Of a DNA stretch of 47,528 nucleotides, positions 9,317 through 15,339 are shown in pieces. The notes under the pieces are model-generated. The model did not search any database. It saw nothing but the letters and a program-made list of their open reading frames with translations, and had not been told where the DNA came from. The stretch lies in assembly GCA_022820675.1 (NCBI GenBank), contig JAJEFC010000315.1:1-47528 (forward strand). The letters are read 5' to 3'. This stretch comes from Vicinamibacteria bacterium. Lineage in GTDB: Bacteria > Acidobacteriota > Vicinamibacteria > Vicinamibacterales > UBA8438. Numbering within the stretch: position 1 is the first letter of the stretch; each line of letters starts with the position of its first letter. The position numbers and the translations under genes were made by a program.

Positions 9317-9541
9317 GCGAAGCCGCCGCCGTCAGCGGGGCCGCTGCAGCACGAGGTGGCAGCTCGTGGCCAGGCCCGCCGACCCGGAAGATCATGCACA
9401 TCACGAGCACCCGGTAGCGCACCCGAGTGGTAGTCGCGAAGCCGACGCCGTCAGCGGGGCCGCTGCAGCACGAGGTAGCAGCTCGTGGCCAGGCCCGCCG
9501 ACCCGAAGATCATGCACATCACGAGCACCTGGTAGCGCACC
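9317..9541. repeat. Tandem echo of the permease gene's 3' end (period 119 bp)
   Basis: About 105 bases beginning GCGAAGCCG at 9317 recur beginning GCGAAGCCG at 9436 with only a few differences. The 9436 copy contains the real end of the minus-strand permease gene; the 9317 copy is an orphan downstream of it. The orphan has one extra G (ACCCGGAAG against ACCCGAAG), which breaks the frame. Confidence 0.9.
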
Positions 9542-10152
9542 GCCATGAGGGGGGCGACGCCGGACAGGATCTGGCCGGTCATCATCCCCGGCAGCGACAC
9601 CAGCCCCACCGCGAGCAGCGAGTTGGTCATCGGAATCAGCGCCGTGCTCATGGCCGCGTGCCGCGCTTCGGGGTAGGTGGCGCCGCGCCGGCGCTCGGCC
9701 TGGAACCTCTCGGCCGCGAGGCTGACGGTGTTCATCGAGTTGGCGATGATCATGCCGGCGAGGGGGACGACCAGGCCGGCGTCGTGCCACGGGTTCGCGC
9801 CGAGCACGCCCTGGGTCACCAGGGCCAGCACCGTCAGGGCGCCGACGCCGATGGCCGCGAGCACCGTCGGATAGCGGCCCGCCCGTTCGTCTCCGAGGGG
9901 CCGCAGCGCGATCCAGCCGGCCACGGCGAGCATCACGCCGACCACCGCGAGGGTCACCATCGCCCGCTCCGACCCGAAGATGAACGTCAGCACGTAGCCC
10001 ACCAGCAGGAGCTGGGTGACCATGCGCAGCACCGCGACCACCGCGGTGCGCGTGCCCAGCGACCAGCGGTGGATGATGACGAGGACGGCGAGGACGGGCA
10101 GGAACGCGAGGGCGAGCCGGGTCAGGGGGATGAGCTGGACGGACTCGTTCAT
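9451..10152 (-). CDS. fetB: FetB/UPF0014-family ABC transporter permease
   Basis: A 233-residue polytopic membrane protein with about six hydrophobic segments. It carries the family's signature blocks: NSMNTVSLAAERF in the middle and SLPGMMTGQILSG followed by VRYQVLVMCMIFG near the C-terminus, as in E. coli FetB (YbbM), the permease of a putative iron exporter. ATG at 10152 (MNESVQLIPLTRLA) is preferred over upstream in-frame starts. No FetA-like ATPase is seen nearby, so the partner is elsewhere or absent. The C-terminus is duplicated downstream. Confidence 0.85.
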   Translation of the reverse strand: MNESVQLIPLTRLALAFLPVLAVLVIIHRWSLGTRTAVVAVLRMVTQLLLVGYVLTFIFGSERAMVTLAVVGVMLAVAGWIALRPLGDERAGRYPTVLAAIGVGALTVLALVTQGVLGANPWHDAGLVVPLAGMIIANSMNTVSLAAERFQAERRRGATYPEARHAAMSTALIPMTNSLLAVGLVSLPGMMTGQILSGVAPLMAVRYQVLVMCMIFGSAGLATSCYLVLQRPR

Positions 10153-10329
10153 GGTCAACCTGTGGACATGGCCGGCGGGCGACCGGCGGGGGGCCGGCGT
10201 CGTCAAGTCGTGTGGGCAGTGGCGGAAGGGGCGCCCGGCGGACCGGGACGGGTCGCGGTCCGTTGGGGACCAGCAACAGGTAGCCGCCCATCGATCGGAA
10301 GGCAGGCCCCGGTCGAGCGGTCGGGTCGG

Positions 10330-11592: not shown

Positions 11593-11651
11593 CCCGCCCT
11601 CGTCAGGAGACGGCGACCGGCGACGGGACGAGGCGGCGGGGCGCGGAGGCC

Positions 11652-11745
11652 GGCGGCCGGGACGGGAGGAACGGCACGCGCCGACGGCGGGGCGCTGGGG
11701 CAGGCGGCCGGGACGGGAGGAACGGCACGCCGACGGCGGTCCGCG
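11652..11745. repeat. Short tandem duplication upstream of the Nudix gene (period 51 bp)
   Basis: GGCGGCCGGGACGGGAGGAA and the following CGGCACGC-CGACGGCGG recur at 11652 and 11703, almost identical apart from a two-base difference. It lies in the 248-base gap between the Nudix start and the DUF411 stop, where I see no gene. Confidence 0.8.
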
Positions 11746-11840: not shown

Positions 11841-12296
11841 CTATTGCGGCATGTGGGTGTTGTAGAGCGCCAGCTCGCCGTCGTCGGTGAACGAGATCAC
11901 CGGGTACTCGCGGTAGAGGGACTTCGGGCCCTCCATGCCCGGCGAGCCCATGGGCATGCCCGGCACCGAGATGCCCGCCACGTCGGGTCGCTCGTCGAGC
12001 AGCCGGCGGATGTCCTCGGCCGGCACGTGACCCTCGATGACGTAGCCGTCGACGAGGCCGGTGTGGCACGAGAAGAGCCGCTGCGGAATCCCCTTCTCCT
12101 GCTTGAGCGGCGTCACGTCAGGCACGTCGGTCGTCTTTACGTTGAAACCCGCTTCCTTGAGATGCAAGACCCATCCCACGCAGCACCCTCAGGTGGGTGA
12201 CTTGTAGACCTCGATGACCGGCTCCTGGGTCTGCACCGCGGTGTGGACCCCGAGGCCGACCACCAGCAACGAGAGAACGGCGAGCAGCGTGCGCAT
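11841..12296 (-). CDS. DUF411 (CopG-type copper protein), candidate selenoprotein with in-frame TGA at codon 36
   Basis: From ATG 12296, preceded by AAGGAG at five bases, the frame encodes a signal peptide (MRTLLAVLSLLVVGLGVHTAVQ), then EPVIEVYKSPT, a TGA at 12191-12189, GCC as Gly-Cys-Cys, and a complete DUF411 domain: LKEAGFNVKTTDVPDVTPLK, SCHTGLVDGYVIEGHVPAEDI, ISVPGMPMGSPGMEGP, ending at TAG. Total 151 codons. DUF411 normally has KSPTCGCC, so TGA stands exactly for the first Cys of the CxCC motif. Family knowledge: the DUF411 protein CopG binds a copper cluster through these cysteines in the periplasm. The frame is intact on both sides and a SECIS-like hairpin follows. Alternatives are a TGC-to-TGA mutation or sequencing error. 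It lies 32 bases downstream of plsC. Confidence 0.8.
12159..12191 (-). promoter_or_regulatory. Candidate bacterial SECIS element directly after the TGA codon
   Basis: Reading the minus strand after the TGA, 17 bases precede an apical loop GGTCTTG closed by GGGATG/CATCTC (six pairs, one G-U), with a further T-A pair below. The E. coli fdhF SECIS has loop AGGUCU starting at nearly the same distance from UGA. Loop sequence GGUCU, its position and the stem are what SelB recognises in that model. The folding was done by eye. Confidence 0.75.
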
Positions 12297-12328
12297 GAAG
12301 GCTCCTTCGTGGTTGTCGCCGTATCAGG

Positions 12329-14228: not shown

Positions 14229-15339
14229 CCACCGCGGCGGCGACGGTCTCGATGGCGGTCTCGATCTCGTCGGCGGTGTTGAAGCGGCCGAGCGAGAAGC
14301 GGACGCTGCCGCGGATTCGGGCGTCGTCGCAGCCCATCGCCCCGAGGACGTAGCTGGGCTGGAGGGCGGCGCTGGTGCAGGCCGAGCTCGACGACACCGC
14401 CAGCGCCGGCATCGCCTTCATCAGCTTCGCCCCGTCCACTCCGGCGAAGCTGAGGTTCGTGGTGTTCGCGAGGCGCTCGGCCCGGCGGCCGTTGACCTCG
14501 ACGCCGTCCAACCGGGACTGCAAGGCGGATTCCAGCCGGTCCCGCAACGCGCGGGCGGCGCCGTCTTCAGCGGCCAGGGCGGCGGCGACCCCCATGCCCA
14601 CGATGCCGGGGACGTTGAGGGTGCCCGACCGCAGGCCGCGCTCGTGGCCGCCGCCGTGCAGCAGGGGCTCGCAGCGCACGCGGGGGCCGCGGCGCCGGAC
14701 GAAGAGCATGCCGACGCCCTTCGGCCCGTGGATCTTGTGGGCGCTGGCGCTCAGCAGGTCGACGTGCATGGCGTTCACGTCGATCCGCTCCTTGCCCCAG
14801 GACTGGGTGGCGTCGGTGTGGAACAGGACCCCGCGCTCGCGGCACAGGGCGCCGATGCGGGCGACGGGATGCAGGACGCCGGTCTCGTTGTTGGCGTGCA
14901 TGACCGAAACGAGCAGCGTCCGCTCGGTGATCGCCGCGGCGAGGCGGTCGAGGTCGAGGCGTCCATCGCGGTCGACGCCCAGGTAGGTGACGTCGATCCC
15001 CTCACCCTCCAGGTGCTCGCAGGCGTCGAGGACGGCGCGGTGCTCGGTCGTCACCGTCACCACGTGCCGCTTCTTCGCGTAGGCCGGCGCGTGCGCCACC
15101 CCCTGCAGGGCCAGGTTGTCCGACTCGGTCGCGCCGCTCGTCCACACGATCTCCCGCGGATCGGCGCCGATGACCGCCGCCACCTGCTCGCGTGCGGTCT
15201 CGACGGCGGTCGCCGCGTCGCAGCCCAGGGCGTGATGCCGGCTCGCCGCGTTGCCGAAGCGATCGGTGAGGAACGGCAGCATCGCGTCGAGGACCCGCGG
15301 GTCGAGGGGCGTCGTCGCGTTGTGGTCCAGGTAGATCAT
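14209..15339 (-). CDS. Cysteine desulfurase (NifS/IscS family)
   Basis: A 376-residue PLP enzyme. It opens MIYLDHNATTPLDPRVLDAM, with SGATESDNLAL (cofactor phosphate region), TEHRAVLDAC, MHANNETGVLHP, DATQSWGK and the Schiff-base lysine block SASAHKIHGPKG. The catalytic Cys is in SSSSACTSAALQPSYVL. It abstracts sulfur from cysteine as a persulfide for Fe-S cluster, thiolation or, in principle, selenium chemistry. The last is of interest because a candidate selenoprotein lies 2 kb downstream on the same strand, but the link is speculative. ATG at 15339 is decided by the family N-terminus. Confidence 0.93.
   Translation of the reverse strand: MIYLDHNATTPLDPRVLDAMLPFLTDRFGNAASRHHALGCDAATAVETAREQVAAVIGADPREIVWTSGATESDNLALQGVAHAPAYAKKRHVVTVTTEHRAVLDACEHLEGEGIDVTYLGVDRDGRLDLDRLAAAITERTLLVSVMHANNETGVLHPVARIGALCRERGVLFHTDATQSWGKERIDVNAMHVDLLSASAHKIHGPKGVGMLFVRRRGPRVRCEPLLHGGGHERGLRSGTLNVPGIVGMGVAAALAAEDGAARALRDRLESALQSRLDGVEVNGRRAERLANTTNLSFAGVDGAKLMKAMPALAVSSSSACTSAALQPSYVLGAMGCDDARIRGSVRFSLGRFNTADEIETAIETVAAAVAALRRG

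Follow-up and report, generated by a model that had tools for sequence, protein, structure and literature searches.

A probable selenocysteine form of the copper protein CopG (DUF411) in a Vicinamibacteria bacterium

CopG is a periplasmic protein with a thioredoxin-like fold that binds four coppers via a CxCC motif and two methionines, and it has been proposed to oxidize Cu(I) and to hand copper on (PMC7558416, in the part of the paper accessible to us). Linkage to copper export or oxidase genes has been reported for some CopG proteins, but is no requirement. Here we describe a gene of the same family in a 47,528-nucleotide stretch of DNA from a Vicinamibacteria bacterium (the window), in which the codon for the first cysteine of the CxCC motif is UGA. 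We consider it highly probable that this gene encodes a selenocysteine (Sec) form of CopG, with the UGA decoded as Sec by means of a downstream hairpin and the machinery of the host.

The gene is a minus-strand open reading frame of 151 codons, from an ATG at 12296 to a TAG that ends at 11841, and it gives the single PF04214 (DUF411) match in the whole host assembly, a draft of 441 contigs. The Pfam match scores 6.3e-28 over residues 75–121, and we take COG3019 to be the COG of the DUF411 family. A sequence-only reading of the window had placed a gene at 11841..12296; the gene is real, and it lies on the minus strand. The same reading had described a good ribosome site, a signal peptide and a DUF411 frame interrupted by one TGA. 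A Shine-Dalgarno-like AGGAG precedes the ATG at 12306-12302, residues 1 to about 23 resemble a signal peptide when judged by eye, and the sole in-frame stop of the frame is the TGA at codon 36 (12191-12189). The elements of the locus are as follows.

11841..12296, minus strand: probable Sec-form DUF411/CopG gene, ATG to TAG with one in-frame TGA (ORF, Pfam, PDB sequence match)
12302..12306, minus strand: Shine-Dalgarno-like AGGAG, five bases 5' of the ATG (read from the sequence)
12228..12296, minus strand: signal-peptide-like N-terminus, residues 1 to about 23 (judged by eye; lower pLDDT, 63 and 71, over the first 20 residues)
12189..12191, minus strand: TGA codon 36, predicted selenocysteine at position 1 of CxCC, giving UGCC (homologue alignment, TGA conservation)
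12158..12178, minus strand: predicted bacterial SECIS hairpin, stem TGGGATG/CATCTCA, apical loop GGTCTTG (folding and comparison)
12180..12185, minus strand: codons of Cys38 and Cys39, the remaining two motif cysteines (translation, homologues)
12063..12068, minus strand: codons of Cys77-His78, SCHT motif, invariant in alignment A1 (translation, A1)
11934..11960, minus strand: GMPMGSPGM, residues 113-121, with Met114 and Met121 invariant in A1 (translation, A1)

The sole PDB sequence match at E 0.001 is 6WIS/6WJE (E 7.8e-30, residues 27–143), which we take to be CopG from Pseudomonas aeruginosa. In this alignment the TGA stands opposite the first Cys of CGCC, which is exactly where the sequence-only reading had placed it. 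The predicted model (pLDDT 91.7, from an alignment of 37 sequences) superimposes on 6WIS with a TM-score of 0.92 by target length and 0.77 by query length and an rmsd of 1.4. 6WIS and 6WJE are by far the top fold matches, and thioredoxin-type chains match weakly, with E values no better than 0.006. The model puts residue 36 between a strand (27–32) and a helix (37–48), the place of the thioredoxin active site. Cys38, Cys39, Cys77-His78, Met114 and Met121 are conserved, and if Sec is inserted the motif would read UxCC, with its position and the two other cysteines retained. Because these residues are kept and the model is CopG-like, the likeliest product is CopG with Sec in the cluster motif. 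A CopG-like role in copper handling is likely on the same comparison.

TGA at codon 36 is found in 47 genomes, this one included, spread over seven family codes. Among 60 relatives (this genome counted) the DUF411 gene is present in 42. In the host's taxonomic family it occurs in 25 of 28 genomes and has the TGA in 24, the sole member with a Cys form (TGC) being G005. Across the order the gene was found in 92 of the 162 genomes searched and the TGA in 42 genomes, which brings 18 more TGA genes from outside the host's family (L133-L135, L154-L161, L163-L169); this count was taken from loci with the TGA listed in the match, and the matches of G038 and G084 stop short of codon 36. From 396 sampled genomes of the phylum, of which 43 matched, came five more TGA genomes, all outside the order (G202, G245, G298, G359 and G374). 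A listed internal stop is sometimes the gene end, as in L049, L132, L148 and L150-L153, where codon 36 is Cys; we therefore read codon 36 individually in every TGA candidate.

Among the 110 loci examined at codon 36, of which 30 came from the 60-genome search and 80 from public matches, this codon is TGA in 26 (two of them duplicates, L052 and L053, which repeat L025 and L036), TGC in 61 and TGT in 23, giving 84 Cys loci. The public matches, from several phyla, are the best 80 of at least 582 confirmed, and the two duplicates are the only TGA among those 80. Every homologue without TGA whose codon 36 was read has Cys there. DUF411 homologues with the in-frame TGA, which the sequence-only reading had proposed looking for in related genomes, thus exist and carry it at the same codon, and with 47 genomes having it there, a base-call error is not a tenable explanation. 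One genome, G103, has three DUF411 copies, none with an internal stop; it belongs to family f10, where the Sec form was not seen.

The coding sequence after the TGA is under purifying selection, with Ka/Ks of 0.04–0.35 across 11 comparisons (one close to saturation); upstream of the TGA the ratio is 0.12–0.47 in the 6 of 7 pairs that were computable. The TGA-bearing relatives retain the frame to the protein end, and the frame decay that had been named as a contrary sign was not observed in them. In a quick tree of 98 rows (47 Sec and 51 Cys, position 36 masked, many forks unresolved), Sec and Cys forms appear interleaved in such a way that gain would look the same as loss. The tree calls for at least 11 changes between the two forms, where shuffled labels need about 33, and the strongly supported branches by themselves force 4.

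The sequence-only reading had also described a hairpin 3' of the TGA. Its stem GGGATG/CATCTC and loop GGTCTTG are present, but the stem starts 11 nt after the TGA and not 17, the latter being the position of the loop. The loop presumably resembles that of the E. coli fdhF SECIS. In this gene alone the hairpin is only mildly unusual and constitutes weak evidence: the stem energy is -7.0 kcal/mol (p = 0.073 against synonymous shuffles), the 45-nt fold reaches -12.4, and the same single-gene shuffles give p values of 0.013–0.198 over the 24 Sec genes of the family. At gathering scores Rfam gave no match anywhere in the window; by that threshold the hairpin belongs to no listed Rfam family. What lifts the hairpin above chance is comparative, namely the TGA in 47 genomes, the identical stem codons in 16 genes and the contrast between Sec and Cys genes.

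The published bSECIS model calls for a loop of 3–9 nt, a G in the first two loop bases, a distance of 16–37 nt from the UGA and an energy of -7.5 kcal/mol or lower (PMC13188914, accessible part). In 24/24 family genes there is a hairpin whose loop size, loop G and spacing fit this model. On stem energy alone, -7.5 or lower is reached by 9 of the 24 Sec genes of the family and by 7 of the 84 Cys genes, and under the published loop and spacing rules with -5 or better the counts are 24/24 versus 20/84. When one detector was run on all genes with loop G not required, a hairpin of -6 kcal/mol or better was present in 41 of 47 Sec genes versus 24 of 116 Cys genes (p 3e-15), a limit that, like the clade split and the compared columns used below, was chosen after the sequences were seen. 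Six of the 47 Sec genes miss -6, L196 and L197 reaching just -3.8. The Cys genes beside Sec clades are mostly without a good hairpin (L047 -1.5, L206 -2.9, L170 -5.1, L207 -4.6, L045 -1.4), and the Cys gene L162 has a different one, at -9.8 and closer to the codon.

All genes of clade 1 (L022-L037) share the block GGGATGGGTC-nnn-CATCTC, which differs among them at three loop bases only, even though the amino acid encoded in the loop varies (L, S, N, K). The stem-loop codons GGA, GTC, CAT and CTC are each identical in 16 of 16 genes; a single codon is thus used at 4/4 of the degenerate, invariant residues of the stem-loop versus 3/44 of the later comparable columns (Fisher p 1.8e-4). The pairs of clade 1 hardly vary, and a slid control (+2) outscores the structure in covariation. 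The hairpin is kept within its clade; a lack of such conservation had been named by the sequence-only reading as a contrary sign. A second group of seven genes has the hairpin GTGGGTG-GTT-CACCTGC, and L041 has a 9-bp stem enclosing GGTCG.

The f2/f6 group has yet another hairpin, GCCTGGA...TCCAGGC. In 15 of its 16 genes (L159 was excluded because its stem lies in a different register), 96.4% of cells are paired versus 23–52% in slid controls, and two pairs are changed on both sides; in L166 a C-G has become G-C via two third codon positions. Nine of the 16 genes have no G in the first two predicted loop bases. The f2/f6 Sec genes also carry a second, near-invariant hairpin, GGCTTC-CAGGTG-GAAGCC, with 100% of cells paired, 39 nt past the TGA and so beyond the usual SECIS distance (L133, L135, L155-L158, L160, L161, L163-L169). 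The profile of synonymous diversity over all 24 family genes has no clear dip at the hairpin (0.377 at codons 41–46 versus 0.437 later), because hairpins of different registers are mixed in it; its lowest windows begin at codons 134–136.

The sel genes that the sequence-only reading had proposed looking for are encoded in the host assembly: selA (536 bits), selB (342 bits, with its neighbour in frame), selD (292 bits) and tRNA-Sec (selC; 63 bits, anticodon TCA by ARAGORN) are all above cut-off. The GC content of the sel loci is 0.72–0.745 against 0.713 for the window, and contamination of the host bin is listed at 5.26%. In the relative G002, an assembly of three contigs, the Sec gene and the hits to selA, selB and tRNA-Sec all lie on contig C1. 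Together, the presence of sel genes, the frame kept in TGA-bearing relatives and the hairpin conserved in its clade support the selenoprotein interpretation first proposed from the window.

Among the Sec genomes, many of them incomplete drafts, selA is above cut-off in 25 of the 27 tested (the misses are G017 and G024), selB in 33 of the 42 from the order and in all 5 from elsewhere in the phylum, and tRNA-Sec reaches 55 bits or more in 31 of the 42 in the order. The 55-bit threshold is our own choice (that of Rfam is 47), because hits of about 47–51 bits are common beside or without a clear tRNA-Sec. G024 has selA and selB as fragments only, G121 (outside the set tested for selA) has just a 51.8-bit tRNA hit, and G017 has no selA match, yet has selB above cut-off. 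Since selA is above cut-off in 52 of the 60 relatives, it cannot separate Sec from Cys genomes. The eight below cut-off are G017 and G024, two genomes with partial hits (G048 and G056) and four with no or trace selA match, which served as controls (G032, G034, G036 and G054). None of the four controls has selB above cut-off or a tRNA-Sec of 55 bits or more; their best tRNA-Sec hits score 46.9–50.4 bits, three of them at 47–50. The two controls that carry DUF411, G036 (L137) and G054 (L174), have the Cys form. G005 possesses selA, selB and tRNA-Sec yet has the Cys form, so the Sec machinery does not force the Sec form.

The window neighbours that were scanned (8.3–17.2 kb) include no copper gene; they are acyltransferase, NUDIX, NIPSNAP, DUF2007, UPF0014, amidohydrolase, NHL-repeat, LON-domain and aminotransferase-V genes. 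The class V aminotransferase (NifS/IscS-like; 14260-15336, minus strand, 7.4e-82) is the third gene upstream of the Sec gene, and NifS/IscS-like enzymes are able to mobilize selenium. The UPF0014 membrane protein (9451-10206, minus strand, 1.1e-51) is found near the DUF411 gene also in L138, L139 and L140. Just 3' of the gene (window about 11640-11740), a sequence of some 35 bases, ggcggccgggacgggaggaacggcacg..., is present in two copies. ARAGORN found no tRNA in the whole window.

We infer that the UGA at codon 36 is read as Sec, a step we hold to be almost certain, with a likely SECIS hairpin just 3' of the UGA guiding decoding by SelA, SelB, SelD and tRNA-Sec encoded in the host assembly. 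This would yield an exported protein of thioredoxin fold with Sec in place of the first Cys of CxCC, the motif that holds the four-copper cluster in CopG, and it may function in periplasmic Cu(I)/Cu(II) handling or in copper delivery, with Sec36 as a cluster ligand and/or as a redox-active residue at the thioredoxin UxxC position. We lean slightly toward Sec as a direct copper ligand. The chances seem to us evenly balanced that this Acidobacteriota lineage has a natural copper-selenium cluster, in which the Sec36 selenolate would bridge coppers in a CopG-type Cu4 site, with several gains or losses relative to the all-Cys form. Alternatively, the protein may be a periplasmic oxidoreductase for which bound copper is incidental, with the inserted Sec36 serving as redox nucleophile in a thioredoxin-like UxxC pair with Cys39. 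We regard this as a tentative possibility: residue 36 sits at the thioredoxin active-site place in the model, UxxC is frequent in the accessible part of the selenoprotein catalogue (PMC13188914), and the scanned neighbours include no copper gene. Against it stand the retention of Cys38, Cys39, Cys77-His78, Met114 and Met121 and the wide lead of 6WIS/6WJE over thioredoxin-type chains in fold match.

The remaining alternatives do without Sec. That the TGA is a true stop, separating a 35-residue exported peptide from a truncated DUF411 protein started at an ATG or GTG at codon 40, is very unlikely. Such a start codon is present in 14 of the 24 family genes, and four of six public proteins examined begin at residue 40, but codon 40 is neither ATG nor GTG in the other 10 or in any of the 15 genes aligned for f2/f6. 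A protein begun at codon 40 would be missing the signal peptide, strand 1 and the CxCC motif, codons 37–39 (GCC) ahead of that start are kept in 24/24 family genes, and both the Cys found at the position elsewhere and the interleaving of Sec and Cys forms would be left unexplained. A frame open apart from the TGA would also be expected if an altered code or a suppressor tRNA read it as Cys, Trp or another residue, which we rate as highly improbable. Eight of the 24 family genes end in TGA, so these genomes use TGA for termination, a tRNA-Sec with a UCA anticodon is present, and the hairpin contrast between Sec and Cys genes would go unexplained; global TGA reassignment was rejected on these grounds. 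A sequencing error or a decaying pseudogene might be suspected in a draft of 441 contigs, but the same-codon TGA in 47 genomes and seven family codes and the low Ka/Ks downstream leave this a negligible probability, and the pseudogene was rejected on that evidence.

DUF411/PF04214 is absent from the 119-family selenoprotein table of the 2026 catalogue (PMC13188914), which agrees with the remark of the sequence-only reading on the listed selenoprotein families, and the word DUF411 does not occur in the accessible text of that paper or of PMC12013277. NCBIfam has no match for the gene product, and we found no paper in the open-licence PMC literature that treats selenoproteins and DUF411 together. 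The four public proteins that begin at residue 40, right after the UGA (P0002, P0005, P0006 and P0015), start where one would expect if annotation pipelines take UGA as a stop, and are likely mis-annotated starts of Sec genes. Several Sec genes would thus be on record, through annotation error, as proteins of 109–112 amino acids that lack the signal peptide and the metal motif. If our reading is true, another family joins the bacterial selenoproteins, and selenium use reaches a copper-cluster protein. Since Sec and Cys alternate within the order, and even within one family (G005), they offer natural pairs for asking what selenium gains at a copper site; candidate gains are tighter Cu(I) binding, faster redox and resistance to over-oxidation.

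The UxxC thioredoxin-fold selenoproteins in the accessible part of the catalogue (selenium Trx, Grx and DsbG-like; PMC13188914) share with the predicted product of this gene a thioredoxin-like fold in which Sec takes the N-terminal place of a CxxC-type motif, and a UGA followed by a hairpin; unlike them, it belongs to the DUF411/CopG family and has a third motif cysteine (UGCC) plus additional conserved Cys, His and Met. Sec is likewise combined with metal handling in predicted selenoproteins from the same source (a putative mercuric transport protein, the SO_0444 Cu/Zn efflux transporter and CopZ-family), but none of these entries is DUF411, the CopZ-family being a 2Fe-2S protein and SO_0444 a transporter. 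From CopG itself (PF04214, 6WIS/6WJE) the predicted protein differs in having UGA, with Sec as its predicted reading, at the place of the first CxCC cysteine, and in its scanned neighbours, which have no copper gene, whereas it is like CopG in sequence, in fold, in the position of CxCC, in the Cys-His and Met residues and in an export signal judged by eye.
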